From Pseudomonadota bacterium (GTDB taxonomy: Bacteria; Pseudomonadota; Gammaproteobacteria; Steroidobacterales; MnTg04): 64,000 bases of DNA. How positions within the stretch are numbered: the first letter of the stretch is position 1; each line of letters begins with the position of its first letter. Shown here in pieces: positions 33,145 to 52,114 of the stretch. The DNA lies in the NCBI GenBank assembly GCA_022572885.1, contig JACZVC010000019.1, positions 1 to 64,000 of the forward strand, written 5' to 3'. The notes below the pieces were generated by a model. It searched no databases and was not told the DNA's origin. It was given only the letters and a program-made list of their open reading frames with translations. Made by a program: the position numbers and the translations under genes.

Positions 33145-33567
33145 TTACTGGTCGCGGGGCGTCACCCTGGCGCGCAGGGTCTTGGTTTTTCCACGTCGTG
33201 TTTTGTCGTCCACACGTTTTTTTCTCGCATTCCTGCCAGGTCGCGTTTTCTTGCGCTTTTTCTTGATGGCGGTTGCACTGCGGATCAGGTCCCGCAACCG
33301 GTCCAGCGCTGCTTCGCGATTTTGTTCCTGGCGGCGATGCTGTTGCGCCTTGATCACCACGACGCCTTCTTTGTTGATGCGCTTGTCCTGAAAGCGCAAC
33401 AACGTTTCCTTCACTACATCGCTCAGCGATGAGCGCCGGATATCGAAACGCAGATGAACCGCGCTCGAAACTTTGTTGACATTCTGGCCGCCGGCACCCT
33501 GTGCGCGAATCGCGGTAAATTCGATCTCGCTGTCCGCTATCTGGATATTCTCGTTGACTGTCAGCAT
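33145..33567 (-). CDS. arfB: Alternative ribosome-rescue factor ArfB (YaeJ)
   Basis: A 140-residue peptidyl-tRNA hydrolase with the RF-1 catalytic motif AQGAGGQNVNKVSSAVHLRFD and a Lys/Arg-rich C-terminal tail (KKKRKKTRPGRNARKKR) that enters the mRNA channel of stalled ribosomes. ATG 33567 gives the family N-terminus (MLTVNENIQIADSEIEF). The longer frame overlaps the transporter gene and is rejected. Confidence 0.9.
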   Translation of the reverse strand: MLTVNENIQIADSEIEFTAIRAQGAGGQNVNKVSSAVHLRFDIRRSSLSDVVKETLLRFQDKRINKEGVVVIKAQQHRRQEQNREAALDRLRDLIRSATAIKKKRKKTRPGRNARKKRVDDKTRRGKTKTLRARVTPRDQ

Positions 33568-33592
33568 GAATGGGTTCCGCACAGACCTGCGC

Positions 33593-34447
33593 TCAGGATA
33601 CTCCTGCCTTGGCTGCATTGCGTGAGCCAAAAATAGCCAGACCAATGCCGCCCAGAATCAGGCCAGATGACAAACTCAGCCGCATAGTCAGGCTTTCGGC
33701 AAGAAATAGAACGCCGCCGAGGGCAGCTATTACCGGTACCGACAACTGCACAGTGGCCGCGCGCGTGGCACTCATCGCGCGCAGCGCTGCGTACCAGATG
33801 ACGTAACCCAGCCCGGAAGCAAGGGCGCCCGAGATGATCGCGAGGACGATGCCCTTCGGCGATAACCAGATGTCATCGGCAAACCATATGCTCACCGCAA
33901 GTGTCGCAGGCACACAGCGGAGGAAATTGGATGCCGTGTCGGTGAGCGGGCTACTCGCTTTTCGACTGCGCAGGGAATAAATACCCCAGCATACGCCAGC
34001 CAGGCACATCATCGCGGCAGCGCCCAGCGGCGGAGACGACAAGCCTGGCAGGAGCAGGTAAATCAGGCCCAGCAAAGCGAGGATCAGGCCTGCCCACTCC
34101 ATATGATGCGGGCGGTCGCCGGACCAAAGTGCAGTGCCGACCATGGTGACCTGTACCGCCGCAAAAAGGATCAAAGCGCCAGTACCGGCATCCAGGCTGA
34201 TATAAGCAAGAGAGAAGGGCAGTGCGTAGAAAAAAAGCATCGCCGCCGACATCCAGCTGCCTTCGCTTCGCAGCCGATCTTTCTTGGTGCTCGCCAAGAC
34301 GATCACCAGCAAAGTGGTTGCGCCGGATAGCAGGCGGATCGATGTGAAACTGATGGCGTCTATTGTTTCCGCGCCGAGCGCCATCCGGCAGAGTACCGAA
34401 TTGGCCGCGAAGGCCAGCAGGGCAAGCGTTGTCAGGGCGAAATTAAT
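33593..34447 (-). CDS. EamA/DMT-family transporter with non-canonical start
   Basis: This ten-span drug/metabolite transporter carries two EamA halves. The first ATG in frame is at 34384, but the frame continues upstream with NFALTTLALLAFAANSVLCR, the normal first helix of the family, before an in-frame stop near 34470. In that stretch there is no ATG, GTG or TTG; ATT at 34447 gives the expected length (284 residues). Either AUU is used, as in infC, or the true start was mutated and a shortened protein is made from 34384. Substrate unknown. Confidence 0.75.
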   Translation of the reverse strand: MNFALTTLALLAFAANSVLCRMALGAETIDAISFTSIRLLSGATTLLVIVLASTKKDRLRSEGSWMSAAMLFFYALPFSLAYISLDAGTGALILFAAVQVTMVGTALWSGDRPHHMEWAGLILALLGLIYLLLPGLSSPPLGAAAMMCLAGVCWGIYSLRSRKASSPLTDTASNFLRCVPATLAVSIWFADDIWLSPKGIVLAIISGALASGLGYVIWYAALRAMSATRAATVQLSVPVIAALGGVLFLAESLTMRLSLSSGLILGGIGLAIFGSRNAAKAGVS

Positions 34448-34461
34448 GGATATGCCGGTGG

Positions 34462-34875
34462 CTATTTGTCAGGGTATTTCGCAAAGTGCGGTGCGGACGA
34501 CATGTCGTCATACCAATGCGCCCGGTTGTCCCAGAAAATGATGTTGTCGGGGTGTATGCCTGGATCGTCGTCCAGCGTGCCCGCCGGAATAACGACAATA
34601 TTCCTTTCTGTGGATAACCTGGGCACCGGCGATCCACATTCAGCGCAGAAATTCCGGCCAAAACTTTTGGCGGAATCCAGTTTGAAATCGCGTATCAGGT
34701 CTTCACCCTCGGTCCAGCTCAAATTATCCGGTGTCGTGAAAATATTGCTGGCATGCGCCGAGCCCGTGGCTTTCCGGCATCTTGAACAGTGGCAGACAAA
34801 AAAGGATTTGAATGGGCCGCGTAATTCAAATTTTACTTTTCCGCAAAGACAGCTGCCGTTAATGACATCGCTCAT
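34462..34875 (-). CDS. GFA-family (glutathione-dependent formaldehyde-activating-like) zinc protein
   Basis: A 137-residue protein with the GFA/Mss4-like zinc motifs SCLCGKVKFEL, CHCSRCRKATGS and FCAECGSPVPRL. Family members bind zinc and are often called glutathione-dependent formaldehyde-activating or CENP-V-like; function is unproven for most. ATG 34875 follows GGAG. Its stop is 15 bases before the presumed EamA start. Confidence 0.88.
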   Translation of the reverse strand: MSDVINGSCLCGKVKFELRGPFKSFFVCHCSRCRKATGSAHASNIFTTPDNLSWTEGEDLIRDFKLDSAKSFGRNFCAECGSPVPRLSTERNIVVIPAGTLDDDPGIHPDNIIFWDNRAHWYDDMSSAPHFAKYPDK

Positions 34876-34910
34876 CGCTCGTTTCTCCACGCCAGGTTCA
34901 AGCAAACCTG

Positions 34911-35117
34911 TCAATAATGCGGCGGCCGCTCATCCCGATCGGCGTCACCTTCGATCATTTCCGCCAATCCCTTCTGCCGGTCAACAAGGTATTTGCAACT
35001 AACGCGCAGTTCTTCGATGTCCTTTTGCTGGCTGCTTACGATGTCGTTCAAAGTTTGCAGTGTGTCTTCCAGGTAGGCGATTTTTGTTTCGACAGAGTCG
35101 ATTCGATTATCGGCCAT
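34911..35117 (-). CDS. slyX: SlyX family protein
   Basis: A 68-residue coiled-coil protein (RIDSVETKIAYLEDTLQTLNDIVSSQQKDIEEL) ending in the conserved DERPPHY. SlyX is widespread in gammaproteobacteria, with no established activity. ATG 35117 follows GGAGT. Confidence 0.9.
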   Translation of the reverse strand: MADNRIDSVETKIAYLEDTLQTLNDIVSSQQKDIEELRVSCKYLVDRQKGLAEMIEGDADRDERPPHY

Positions 35118-35165
35118 ATCGGTCGGACTCCTTGCGCATTTTTCGGACGCCGGCATGGGCAAAAA

Positions 35166-37184
35166 TCAATCCGGTTTCCTGAATTTCAGCGTCATGCGGT
35201 CGCTTTCGCCAATCGCGAGATATTTATCCCGATCGACGTCTTTCAAACGCAGTGAAGGAGGCAGCGTCCACACCCCTTCCGGATGATCCCTGCTGTCATT
35301 CGGGTTGGCATTGATCTCGCCGCTTTCAACGAATTCGAAACCTGCCGATTCCGCGAGTTTTATGACGTAGTCCTGGCGAACATAACCGGAAACAACTTTC
35401 GGGTCCTGCTCGTTTCCAGGGTCGGCACGGTGCGCTACGACGCCCAGGATGCCGCCCGGCTTCAATGCGGCATACATGCCGGCGAGCGCTTCAGGGGCAA
35501 CACCTTCTCTCATCCAGTTATGGACGTTTCTAAAGGTCAAAACCATATCGGCGGAACCCGGCGGGGCGATAGCGAGCAACAATGGCGGGTCGAAAACCGT
35601 GACTTCGACTTTAGAATAACTGCCGGGGTCGGCCGCCAGTTTGGCATTAAACTTTTCCGCATTCGACCTGAAATAATTGCTTTCGGAATCGGGGTCGAAG
35701 CTTGCCGCGTATAACTTGCCGTTGTCCTTCAGATAGGGTGCAAGGATCTCGGTGTACCAGCCGCCCCCGCCAGGCGAAATTTCAACGATCGTCATGTCCG
35801 GTTTGATGCCAATAAATTCCAGCGTTTCGACCGGATGCCGGTAATGATTGCGCGCCCTGGAAGCTTCGCTGCGGTGATCGCCATCGGCGATTGCGGCCAG
35901 GCTTGCCGGCAGCGAACGGTCAAATTCGACGCCGTTGCGCCAGACCCTGGCAATCTGGCGGGAGTCGGTAATATCGCGGGTCGGATTGCCGTCGATCAAT
36001 ACCAGGTCGGCGAGCAGCCCCACCGCAATCCGCCCGCGGTCGGCAAGGGCAAACGCATCGGCCGCGTTGGCTGTCGCCGCCGACAGGGCTTCGACGGGAC
36101 TCAGACCCGCCTGGACCAGCAGTTCCAATTCACGGTGCATGCTGATTCCATGCATGACGCCCGCATTGGGAGGATCGGTACCGGCCACCAGCATGACACC
36201 GGCGTCGTGCAGCCCGCGAACCGCATCGAGAAACTGATCCAGATTTTCGAGATTTTGATTTTCATTGCCAGCCGTCAGATTGGCGATCATTTCATCGTCA
36301 AGATATGGCGTCACTGCCGGGTCTTTCGCAATCAGGGCGCGCGCACTTCCCATGACAAAGCCATCCGGAACGGACAGTGTTGCGGTGACAAACATGCCGT
36401 GTTCCGCCAGTAATTTCGACAATTCAGGCTCGGCGCCCGATGTACGCCAGATATGCGCCAATCCGTCCGCGCCCGCGTCAATGACTGTTCTGACGTCATC
36501 GGGCGTTTCGATGTGGGCGACAACTTTCAAGTTTCGCTTATGTGCGGCCTCGACCAGCGCCCGCGTGGTAGCGGCGCTCATGGTTGGCATGCCGTTCATT
36601 GCCCGCGCGCCGTTTAGCACGATTTTCTGGTAATCGGCGCCATTGGCAAGCCGTTCGGCGACGAAAGCGTCCGCCTGTAGTGGACCGTCTACAGTGGGAA
36701 TAACAATGTCGTATTCGGTGCCGTGGCCGCCCGGCGGAGTTGCCAGCATATCGGTGGACAGGAAGTCGGCAACATCGTCGCGAGTTTCCGCAGCCATTTT
36801 CAGAACGGGGAAAACCCCCGGCCAGGTCATCTGGTCGAGGTTGGTCGTTACCCCGAATCGCAACGCGGTCTGTAGCTGGGTCACGGATGAGGTGTGGGTA
36901 TGGGTATCGATCATGCCCGGCATCAAGGTCATGCCGCCGGCATCGATGATTTCCAGCCCCCCGGGGAGTTCACTGCTATCGCTGATTTCCGAGATCAGCC
37001 GGTCGCGGACCACCACATGAAATCCGTCCAGTACCCGGGTGCCATCGAAGACCCGGGCGTTGGCAATGACAAAACCGCTGTTGCCGGCGCTTTGCGCCAC
37101 GCTGGCGCAGCTCGCAATCAATAACAGGGGCAGTAACCAGGTGGCACGCGCGATGCGATGGATTTTGCTGTGTCTCGTATTCAC
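35166..37184 (-). CDS. Lipoprotein fusion: amidohydrolase domain plus COG4798-like SAM methyltransferase domain
   Basis: A 672-residue protein with a lipoprotein signal (lipobox LIASC, Cys near residue 26). Residues about 35-430 form a metal-dependent amidohydrolase: MIDTHTHTSS, YQKIVLNGAR, VVAHIET, AHIWR, AGTDPPNAG, LADLVLIDGNP. Residues about 450-672 form a class I methyltransferase-like domain of the COG4798 type: HPVETLEFIGIKPDMTIVEISPGGGGWYTEIL, FRNVHNWM, LKPGGILGVVAHR. COG4798 proteins are usually separate exported proteins. A methyltransferase fold outside the cytoplasm has no obvious SAM supply, so the domain may be repurposed. GTG 37184 follows AAGGA. Confidence 0.82.
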   Translation of the reverse strand: MNTRHSKIHRIARATWLLPLLLIASCASVAQSAGNSGFVIANARVFDGTRVLDGFHVVVRDRLISEISDSSELPGGLEIIDAGGMTLMPGMIDTHTHTSSVTQLQTALRFGVTTNLDQMTWPGVFPVLKMAAETRDDVADFLSTDMLATPPGGHGTEYDIVIPTVDGPLQADAFVAERLANGADYQKIVLNGARAMNGMPTMSAATTRALVEAAHKRNLKVVAHIETPDDVRTVIDAGADGLAHIWRTSGAEPELSKLLAEHGMFVTATLSVPDGFVMGSARALIAKDPAVTPYLDDEMIANLTAGNENQNLENLDQFLDAVRGLHDAGVMLVAGTDPPNAGVMHGISMHRELELLVQAGLSPVEALSAATANAADAFALADRGRIAVGLLADLVLIDGNPTRDITDSRQIARVWRNGVEFDRSLPASLAAIADGDHRSEASRARNHYRHPVETLEFIGIKPDMTIVEISPGGGGWYTEILAPYLKDNGKLYAASFDPDSESNYFRSNAEKFNAKLAADPGSYSKVEVTVFDPPLLLAIAPPGSADMVLTFRNVHNWMREGVAPEALAGMYAALKPGGILGVVAHRADPGNEQDPKVVSGYVRQDYVIKLAESAGFEFVESGEINANPNDSRDHPEGVWTLPPSLRLKDVDRDKYLAIGESDRMTLKFRKPD

Positions 37185-37290
37185 AAGTATTCCTTTTCCG
37201 TAGTGACTCCGCCGGGTAGCGGTGATTCTCAACCGATTTTAGCCTTAAAAGAAACCGGTCGCGACCGGACGACCTAACAATCGAGGAATA

Positions 37291-37347
37291 TGTAAAGGGT
37301 GCTTGACATCCAGGTCAAAAAGCGTAGTGTAAAGGTTGCTTTACACT
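37291..37347 (+). promoter_or_regulatory. Promoter with two TGTAAAG-N4-CTTTACA operators
   Basis: A perfect 9-bp inverted repeat, AGTGTAAAG-gttg-CTTTACACT, spans 37326-37347. A second copy, TGTAAAGGGTGCTTGACA (37291-37308), differs from the first core at two bases and contains the -35 hexamer TTGACA (37303-37308). The -10 region (about 37325-37331) falls inside the perfect copy. Both operators thus cover the promoter of the membrane-protein/Xre operon; the Xre protein is the likely repressor. Confidence 0.75.
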
Positions 37348-49657: not shown

Positions 49658-52114
49658 TCAGGAGCCTGCCGATGGTGATCGAAAAAAGGCGCCGGTGTTG
49701 ACCACAACGGCTGCCGCCACATACAGCGCAAGGGCCAACAGGATCACTGCCGTAAAGCCAAGCTCAATCGCCAAAAGCGTCCCCAGCGATGCGCTCACGA
49801 CCGAAGCATAGCCATTGATGCCCCAGGCCCACGGGATAAAATCCGGTGCTTGACCGGCGACCTGGCCAAGACCGATCGGAAAAGGCATGCCCATGCAAAA
49901 TGCCAATGGCGCGATCATCAGCAGCGCAATCGGTATCTTGATTGCGTCCGGCTGCCCGATAAGACGGTCGAACAATTCAGGCAAGAAAAACAAATAAACC
50001 AGGGCAACGGACACGATTCCTGTCACGGCATAGACCACCAGAAAGAGCCTACGACCTCGGTAGCGCCGCACCAGCGTCTGCGAATAGCCGCTGCCCAGCC
50101 CGGCGAAGATCAGGAAACCGCTCAGCACAACAGCAACAGAGTAAAGGGGATGACCGAGAAACAGGATGAATTTTTGAATGAAAGCCATTTCCACGAACAA
50201 GAAAGCCAGGCCGAGGATAAAGAAATACGCACCCATGCGGGTACCGGCGCCTTTAGGCCAGCGGCGCTTTACGATCCAAAGCGGCAAAAGTATCAGGAGG
50301 GCGCCTGCCAGGATTGCCTGAATCAGCGTGGCAACCAGCACCAGATAACCCCATTCGATCAGCCCGGCGCCACCGCGCTTACGCAGCGACATCACTTCAG
50401 GCAATGTGCGCCATTTGAAAAAATGGAAAAAATAGGGCTTGTCGTCGGTGGCCGGTTCGATCCGAAATTTATAACGATCAAGATACTCAGCAGCTCCGTG
50501 ACCTGAAAGCGCCATCGCACCGTCAAACAAAAAAGGCTGATCCAGCAAGTTATAGCGATTTGCTTCGCTGGCGGTCATCGACGGATAAAAGGCGGTATCG
50601 AAAGAGTTGGTTTTGCAAAACTCCTTGATGATTTCGATTTCCCGAGCGGAAAAATTGCCGTTTTTCACCAGCATTGTGCTGGTATTCCAGCTCCGGATCA
50701 GGACGATACTCTGGGCGGGATCGGCCGCTCCTTCCTGCTTTAGCGCCTCGATCACCGTGGCGAATAACTTCAGGCTGTCTCGGGGTGGCACCTTCAACCA
50801 TCGCGTGATGGCGAGCATTCCTCCGGGCGCGACACGTTGCAGGAATTCTCCGATGGCCTCGACGGTGTAAAGATAACTTTCATTCAGCGCCTGGACACCC
50901 GCTCCGGATGCGGCGAAAGAGTCCAGTAGCGCTATGTGTATCAGATCGTACCGGGCGGCGCGCCTGGCAACGAAAGAGCGGGCCTCGTCGGTGTATACAT
51001 CGATACGCTCATCGTCGTATAAATGCCCGGCAAAATCGGCATAGGTGTCACCGACCAGCTTGGTCACCAGCGGATTCAGTTCGACAGCGTCAATAGCGCG
51101 GGCGCCGTGATAGACGGCAAACAACACGTCGGTACCGCCACCGGCGCCAAGGACCAGAACCCTGGGCCTGTCGAGCAAACGATATGGCAGCGCGGCGGTA
51201 ATATCATCCATGTACGCGAGTGAATTCAGGTTGCCGTCGAAGCGCGTAATTACGCTCATCGCGTCGCCGTCAGTAAATATCGCGAGTTGCGCGGGGGGTT
51301 CAGATTGCGTGTTCAGGCTCAGGCCCGGTGCGTCGCGAAATGGGATGGCCGGACTCTCGACGACGGTCAATAGACCCAGTGGGCTCGAATATTGCCCCAG
51401 CACGCGGGCATCGATAACTTGCAGGGCCTGGCTTTGGCCCTTGAACTCGGAGATCCGAAAAGCCGGCCAATTTTGCGGTAAGACCAACAAAAGGCCGATA
51501 AAGAAAACGCCCAGCGCAAGCATAAAGCGGTTGCGCGCCGGTGACGCGAGGGCGCGGCCCACCAATGCCGATGCAGCCAACGCGAATACCGCCAGCAGCC
51601 GCAGCGTGTTCTGCGGCGACAGCAGAAAAAGCGCCGCGACAACCACCAACGCCCCGGCTCCCGCGCCCAGGAGATCGAAAAAATAAATACGGCTGATGTG
51701 TTTCTTCAGGCAAGTGAAAGCGAGGCCGATACAACTGGCCGCGAAAAAAAACGGCACGAAGAACACCAGGTACATTAGCGACAGGTAGAGCAACTGACGC
51801 GGATCCCAGACAATCTCCAGCGCATTGAAAGGTACCAACTGCCCCAGCGCAAAACAAATAATCATGGTGACGCTGAAAAGCAAGGCGCTGACGCTGAATG
51901 CCAGGGCAAAATGAGGAACTAACAAGCGCTTGCTTAATGCGATAAAAGAGCCGCTCGCGCCATAGCCAAGGAGCGCCAGGCTAATGACCATGTATGCAAA
52001 ATGATGCCACTGCACGATCGACAGTAATCGCATCAATAGAATTTCATAGCCGATTGCGGCCACCGAAATAAGCGATACAGAGAAAAATACAAAGTGACGG
52101 TTGTGTGTTTTCAC
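49658..52114 (-). CDS. Polytopic membrane protein with spermidine-synthase-like domain
   Basis: An 818-residue protein with about six N-terminal spans, a central Rossmann domain (VLVLGAGGGTDVLFAVYHGARAIDAVELNP, YTDEARSFVARRAARYDLIHI, ESYLYTVEAIGEFLQRVAPGG) and about six further spans. The central domain is of the SpeE/class I methyltransferase type. Related membrane-bound spermidine-synthase-like proteins are widespread with no proven reaction; the usual polyamine-binding acidic motif is not obvious, so true aminopropyl transfer is doubtful. Confidence 0.8.
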   Translation of the reverse strand: MKTHNRHFVFFSVSLISVAAIGYEILLMRLLSIVQWHHFAYMVISLALLGYGASGSFIALSKRLLVPHFALAFSVSALLFSVTMIICFALGQLVPFNALEIVWDPRQLLYLSLMYLVFFVPFFFAASCIGLAFTCLKKHISRIYFFDLLGAGAGALVVVAALFLLSPQNTLRLLAVFALAASALVGRALASPARNRFMLALGVFFIGLLLVLPQNWPAFRISEFKGQSQALQVIDARVLGQYSSPLGLLTVVESPAIPFRDAPGLSLNTQSEPPAQLAIFTDGDAMSVITRFDGNLNSLAYMDDITAALPYRLLDRPRVLVLGAGGGTDVLFAVYHGARAIDAVELNPLVTKLVGDTYADFAGHLYDDERIDVYTDEARSFVARRAARYDLIHIALLDSFAASGAGVQALNESYLYTVEAIGEFLQRVAPGGMLAITRWLKVPPRDSLKLFATVIEALKQEGAADPAQSIVLIRSWNTSTMLVKNGNFSAREIEIIKEFCKTNSFDTAFYPSMTASEANRYNLLDQPFLFDGAMALSGHGAAEYLDRYKFRIEPATDDKPYFFHFFKWRTLPEVMSLRKRGGAGLIEWGYLVLVATLIQAILAGALLILLPLWIVKRRWPKGAGTRMGAYFFILGLAFLFVEMAFIQKFILFLGHPLYSVAVVLSGFLIFAGLGSGYSQTLVRRYRGRRLFLVVYAVTGIVSVALVYLFFLPELFDRLIGQPDAIKIPIALLMIAPLAFCMGMPFPIGLGQVAGQAPDFIPWAWGINGYASVVSASLGTLLAIELGFTAVILLALALYVAAAVVVNTGAFFRSPSAGS

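Follow-up and report, generated by a model that had tools for sequence, protein, structure and literature searches.

A predicted lipid-anchored amidohydrolase fused to an exported methyltransferase-fold domain that is probably not a canonical SAM-dependent methyltransferase

The window, that is, the whole stretch of 64,000 nucleotides analysed here, carries on its minus strand a gene whose product joins an amidohydrolase to a domain of predicted class I methyltransferase fold, and this second domain, like nearly all of the exported stand-alone proteins related to it, lacks the acidic residue that holds the ribose of S-adenosylmethionine (SAM). A methyltransferase fold is nearly always taken to mean SAM dependence, and we know of no supply of SAM to the periplasm. 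Our reading, held with about even confidence, is that the fusion protein is a bifunctional enzyme of the periplasm, tethered to the outer membrane, and that its second half is probably something other than a canonical SAM methyltransferase. The broader proposal, that a widespread exported methyltransferase-fold family gave up canonical SAM binding and constitutes an undescribed class of periplasmic enzymes with another ligand, coupled in this genus to a lipid-anchored hydrolase, is put forward tentatively and with distinctly less than even confidence.

The gene and its N-terminal signals are as follows.

35166-37184, minus strand: fusion gene, 672 codons for 672 amino acids, GTG start, stop codon at 35166-35168
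37191-37195, minus strand: ribosome-binding site AAGGA, seen in the sequence 6 bases 5' of the GTG of the fusion gene
37107-37184, minus strand: lipoprotein signal peptide, residues 1-26, LLIAS/C26 with A27 at +2; Cys26 is invariant in three species

The open reading frame contains no internal stop and its GTG start is kept in three species. The initial annotation was right to describe an amidohydrolase and a methyltransferase-like domain in one intact protein preceded by a lipobox. The N-end consists of a basic n-region followed by WLLPLLLIAS, Cys26 and Ala27, that is, the charged region, hydrophobic stretch and lipobox cysteine of a bacterial lipoprotein, and the lipobox of the orthologue in genome G002 reads LLVAG/C; signal peptides, here and below, were called from hydropathy and the lipobox pattern. 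Alanine directly after the lipobox cysteine predicts sorting to the outer membrane (the +2 rule), and the fusion protein is accordingly predicted to be lipidated at Cys26 and outer-membrane-sorted. It would be exported by the Sec system and, through the lipid on Cys26, anchored to the outer membrane facing the periplasm.

Intact orthologues of the fusion are present in G004 (89% identity) and G002 (82% identity), so the gene is intact in three species of the genus, and the genes downstream of it keep their order.

33145-35162, minus strand: slyX, a GFA-type gene, an EamA transporter gene and an ArfB/RF-1-like gene, in identical order in G004, G002 and G001

Among the intact fusions dN/dS is 0.11-0.14 for the amidohydrolase half and 0.09-0.19 for the second domain, showing purifying selection on both halves at the level of the sequences. 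These orthologues and the conserved gene order rule out the possibility, raised in the initial annotation as what would refute the fusion, that an assembly or frameshift error had merged two separate genes, and we give it a negligible probability. The one observation in its favour is that the draft of G001 carries the gene in two frames, but the break there lies within the hydrolase and away from the junction, the gene is intact in the three other species, and the neighbouring EamA gene of G001 is broken as well, which points to draft errors. The fusion was not found in G003, of which the assembly is incomplete. The EamA/DMT transporter gene (33593-34384, minus strand) belongs to the downstream row of all four fusion-bearing genomes.

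The N-terminal half shows the following features.

35922-37073, minus strand: amidohydrolase domain, residues 38-421 (PF01979 and NagA_N; PDB relatives 9kov, 2p9b, 3mkv and 3mtw)
36894-36902, minus strand: HxH metal motif His95-Thr-His97, kept in six stand-alone relatives
36624-36626, minus strand: Lys187, the expected carboxylated bridging lysine, which lines up with the lysine of solved relatives
36513-36515, minus strand: His224, metal ligand, kept in six stand-alone relatives
36453-36455, minus strand: His244, metal ligand, kept in six stand-alone relatives
36174-36176, minus strand: Asp337, catalytic or metal-binding aspartate, kept in six stand-alone relatives

The Pfam profile PF01979 matches residues 86-418 with E=4e-33 and 115.4 bits against a cut-off of 25, and the set of metal ligands (H95, H97, K187, H224, H244 and D337) is complete in the fusion as it is in six free relatives, bearing out the earlier description of a complete amidohydrolase. 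Among the solved structures closest to it in sequence are enzymes resembling dipeptidases and carboxypeptidases (2p9b, 3mkv, 3mtw). With this Xaa-Pro dipeptidase or arginine carboxypeptidase-like branch of PF01979, to which the NCBIfam equivalog NF051886 also belongs, the fusion has in common the ligands HxH, Lys, His, His and Asp, the order of the elements and a sequence similarity detectable over the whole domain; it differs in being a lipoprotein with a second domain, and in scoring only 107.8 with NF051886, the best equivalog, against a cut-off of 500, and therefore no substrate is assigned to this half. Its residues lead us to expect that the N-terminal half works as a binuclear metal hydrolase of the dipeptidase/carboxypeptidase-like branch and cleaves an amide bond.

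The C-terminal half shows the following features.

35895-35921, minus strand: junction, residues about 422-430, where the C-end of the hydrolase is followed directly by the second domain in its mature form, without a second signal peptide
35169-35906, minus strand: class I methyltransferase-fold domain, residues 427-672 (AlphaFold2 pLDDT 96.7; Z 19.1 to 3dh0)
35748-35783, minus strand: motif I loop, E468-ISPGGGGWYT-E479, with Glu468 and Pro471 in 78 of 78 family sequences
35700-35702, minus strand: Ser495, by residue alignments the position at the tip of strand beta2 that holds Asp or Glu in SAM enzymes, with Asp497 two residues on

By Pfam, the C-terminal domain alone is matched weakly (Methyltransf_12, E=0.0017, below the cut-off). 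The structure prediction that the initial annotation had proposed supplied what the profile did not: the AlphaFold2 model, which covers the second domain only and was built from 78 family sequences, has a pLDDT of 96.7 and a pTM of 0.93, its strands run in class I order and it shows the seven-stranded alpha/beta class I fold, and its structure matches reach Z 19.1 for 3dh0 and 18.4 for 1vl5. According to this model the C-terminal domain has the class I methyltransferase fold. With 3dh0, a SAM-dependent methyltransferase of Aquifex aeolicus, it shares the fold (rmsd 2.8 over 176 residues) and the motif I region, whereas the identity is 18% and the Asp at the beta2 tip of 3dh0 is absent from the exported family.

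The residues that would hold SAM are present in one part of the domain and missing in another. The acid and glycine loop of motif I are there (Glu468 in 78 of 78 sequences, Gly at position 475 in 77 of 78), but at the beta2 tip, where an SAM-dependent class I enzyme is expected to have Asp or Glu, the fusion has Ser495, and an acid stands at this place (domain position 72) in just two of the 78 family sequences, with His, Gly or Ser as the usual residues. To place this position we used two HMM alignments to 3dh0 together with the predicted strand; comparing profiles with the PIMT family gave a probability of 46%, too weak for a reliable mapping of beta2. As controls, the beta2 acid is kept by 21 of 22 other class I methyltransferases of this genome, by our own reading of the matched segments, and by all 26 PIMT sequences. 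The acid near the end of beta3, which contacts the base, is found in 27/78 and 18/78 sequences at two candidate positions. The contact between the beta2 acid and the ribose hydroxyls has been called completely conserved or essentially universal in SAM methyltransferases, and M.HaeIII mutated at the ribose contact lost its activity or had it reduced by up to 450-fold (PMC4777477), while another paper goes no further than "partially conserved" for the motif II acid (PMC1282579). Asp497 or its equivalent is Asp in the fusion and in 28 of 35 nearer relatives, and Asp or Glu in 33 of the 78 sequences of the wider set; being common in the nearer relatives though not in the wider set, it makes a shifted ribose contact possible, and Asp497 might take over the role of the beta2 acid. 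Meanwhile about 20 or more positions, mostly polar or glycine, never vary across the 78 sequences, which argues for an active enzyme; they include, in domain numbering, R15, R22, R26, E45, D123, R129, H132 and H162 as well as R163, Y178, N204, D207, W216, E237 and D239. We therefore file the second domain under the class I fold but not among the SAM-dependent methyltransferases, since on its residues it is probably not a canonical one. The suggestion in the initial annotation that the domain might have another role gains support from the family-wide lack of the ribose-binding acid.

The second domain is related over its whole length (about 53-66% identity, with the invariant residues in common) to a family of exported stand-alone proteins, each of which is made separately and has a signal peptide, unlike the fused domain. 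A signal peptide or lipobox was found throughout the first set of stand-alone relatives inspected, and hydropathy showed that 78 of 81 relatives have a strongly hydrophobic segment immediately N-terminal to the domain. A lipobox is present in 21 of the 81, and in the three relatives outside the 78 the hydrophobic stretch is weaker or the N-end is mis-started. Each of the 30 genomes sampled near the window has family members, at least 587 stand-alone relatives were confirmed in a scan of GTDB species, and the family is found in hundreds of proteobacteria including the cultured hosts Pseudoalteromonas, Janthinobacterium, Kangiella and Zhongshania. No Pfam or NCBIfam model specific to the stand-alone family scored above its cut-off, and no relatives were found in viral contigs. 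Around 80 stand-alone loci there is neither a conserved operon partner, the commonest neighbour family with a non-overlapping frame being present at 9 of the 80, nor a common transporter neighbour. A literature search for COG4798 or for exported or periplasmic methyltransferases found no paper; in a chlorite dismutase paper with a methyltransferase neighbour, nothing ties that neighbour to the exported family. This genome has a second, stand-alone member with a lipobox (locus L006, contig C9, 1339-2205), about 30% identical, which is likewise without the beta2 acid (VYAQNNQ).

By the signals in these proteins, export is the rule in the stand-alone family and is older than the fusion, which rules out that fusion accidentally exported a cytoplasmic enzyme. 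Therefore the fusion adds no new topological puzzle, as the puzzle is family-wide, and the question shifts to the role of a methyltransferase fold outside the cytoplasm in the family as a whole.

How the two halves came together can be read from their relatives. Outside the genus both halves were found as separate proteins, and the search for the same fusion in other genomes, a check named in the initial annotation, came back empty for more than 1,100 genomes (396 of the order, 369 of the class and 398 of the phylum, with the top candidates per genome scored). The long open frames of G084 and G189 were considered as fusions and rejected, since in both the reading frame stays open upstream of a stand-alone protein that has its own signal peptide. 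In a quick tree of 111 second domains the four fused copies form a single clade (SH-aLRT 99) among stand-alone exported proteins of the same order, showing, as far as sequences can, that the fusion arose once, in the ancestor of the genus. The C-end of the nearest free hydrolases (47-49% identity) coincides with that of the fused hydrolase and the fused second domain starts where the mature part of its free relatives starts, so the event would have attached an exported methyltransferase-fold protein, minus its signal peptide, to the C-end of an exported amidohydrolase. No hydrolase lies within 5 kb of the stand-alone genes at 80 loci. G002 and G004 also retain a separate, distant stand-alone copy of the methyltransferase-fold protein, and therefore the fusion did not replace it there.

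In the mechanism that we favour, the hydrolase half would cut an amide bond, and the second half would act on or bind a periplasmic small molecule without needing canonical SAM binding. It may work on the same or a related compound as the hydrolase or may merely be anchored by the fusion, so that the fusion would either let two steps take place on a single envelope compound or do no more than anchor a second enzyme. Against this stands the possibility that the second domain does transfer methyl groups from SAM in the periplasm, with the SAM being leaked, scavenged or exported and its ribose held by Asp497 or another side chain. Its class I fold, the best structure matches being SAM enzymes, the motif I (ExxPGGG) kept as in SAM enzymes and the Asp that most nearer relatives have two residues after the canonical site agree with this possibility, and so does the exported PIMT of the same genome (52156-52893, minus strand), whose canonical SAM residues suggest that SAM may exist outside the cytoplasm and keep this explanation alive. 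The rarity of the canonical beta2 acid tells against it, however, as does the +2 acid, which is not conserved family-wide; and the EamA transporter gene downstream of the fusion, which might be taken in its favour, is weakened by the commonness of EamA proteins, with four genes in this genome alone, and by the lack of a common transporter neighbour at the stand-alone loci. We consider a periplasmic SAM enzyme unlikely, though it is the strongest competitor of a second half that does not use SAM canonically.

A non-catalytic binding or scaffolding module aiding the hydrolase would fit the loss of the canonical cofactor residue and the fusion to an enzyme, but the domain stands alone in most relatives and its invariant polar residues are more numerous than a scaffold needs, making this quite improbable. 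The initial annotation had also considered incomplete export, in which the protein or a part of it would stay in the cytoplasm, where SAM is available. The sole merit of that explanation is to remove the supply problem; the signal and lipobox are kept across species and the free relatives are themselves exported as a rule, and we regard it as very improbable.

The initial annotation had counted two exported SAM enzymes as puzzles in this window. The exported PIMT is real: its signal peptide is conserved throughout the genus and also in several of the order's families, and it retains all canonical SAM residues examined. It poses a genuine SAM-supply puzzle, separate from the question of the fusion. 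The pairing with the fusion did not hold, as export is not peculiar to the fusion and the PIMT, with its canonical residues, differs in kind. A second PIMT, on contig C16, is 47% identical to it. Adjoining the exported PIMT is an open frame of 818 residues (49658-52114, minus strand) with no Pfam match at E 0.001.

An exported family with invariant active-site-like residues but without the ribose-holding acid makes the assumption of SAM dependence testable in proteins from cultured hosts. The fusion links this family to a defined partner activity in the envelope, amide hydrolysis, and if the family is indeed a class of periplasmic enzymes that do not bind SAM canonically, its fusion to a lipid-anchored hydrolase would be a first hint at the pathway in which it works.

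Beyond the start of the fusion gene lies a palindrome, AGTGTAAAG-CAAC-CTTTACACT, at 37326-37347, upstream of genes for a small membrane protein (37362) and an HTH regulator (37670), which run divergently from the fusion gene; the HTH regulator may use the palindrome as its operator.
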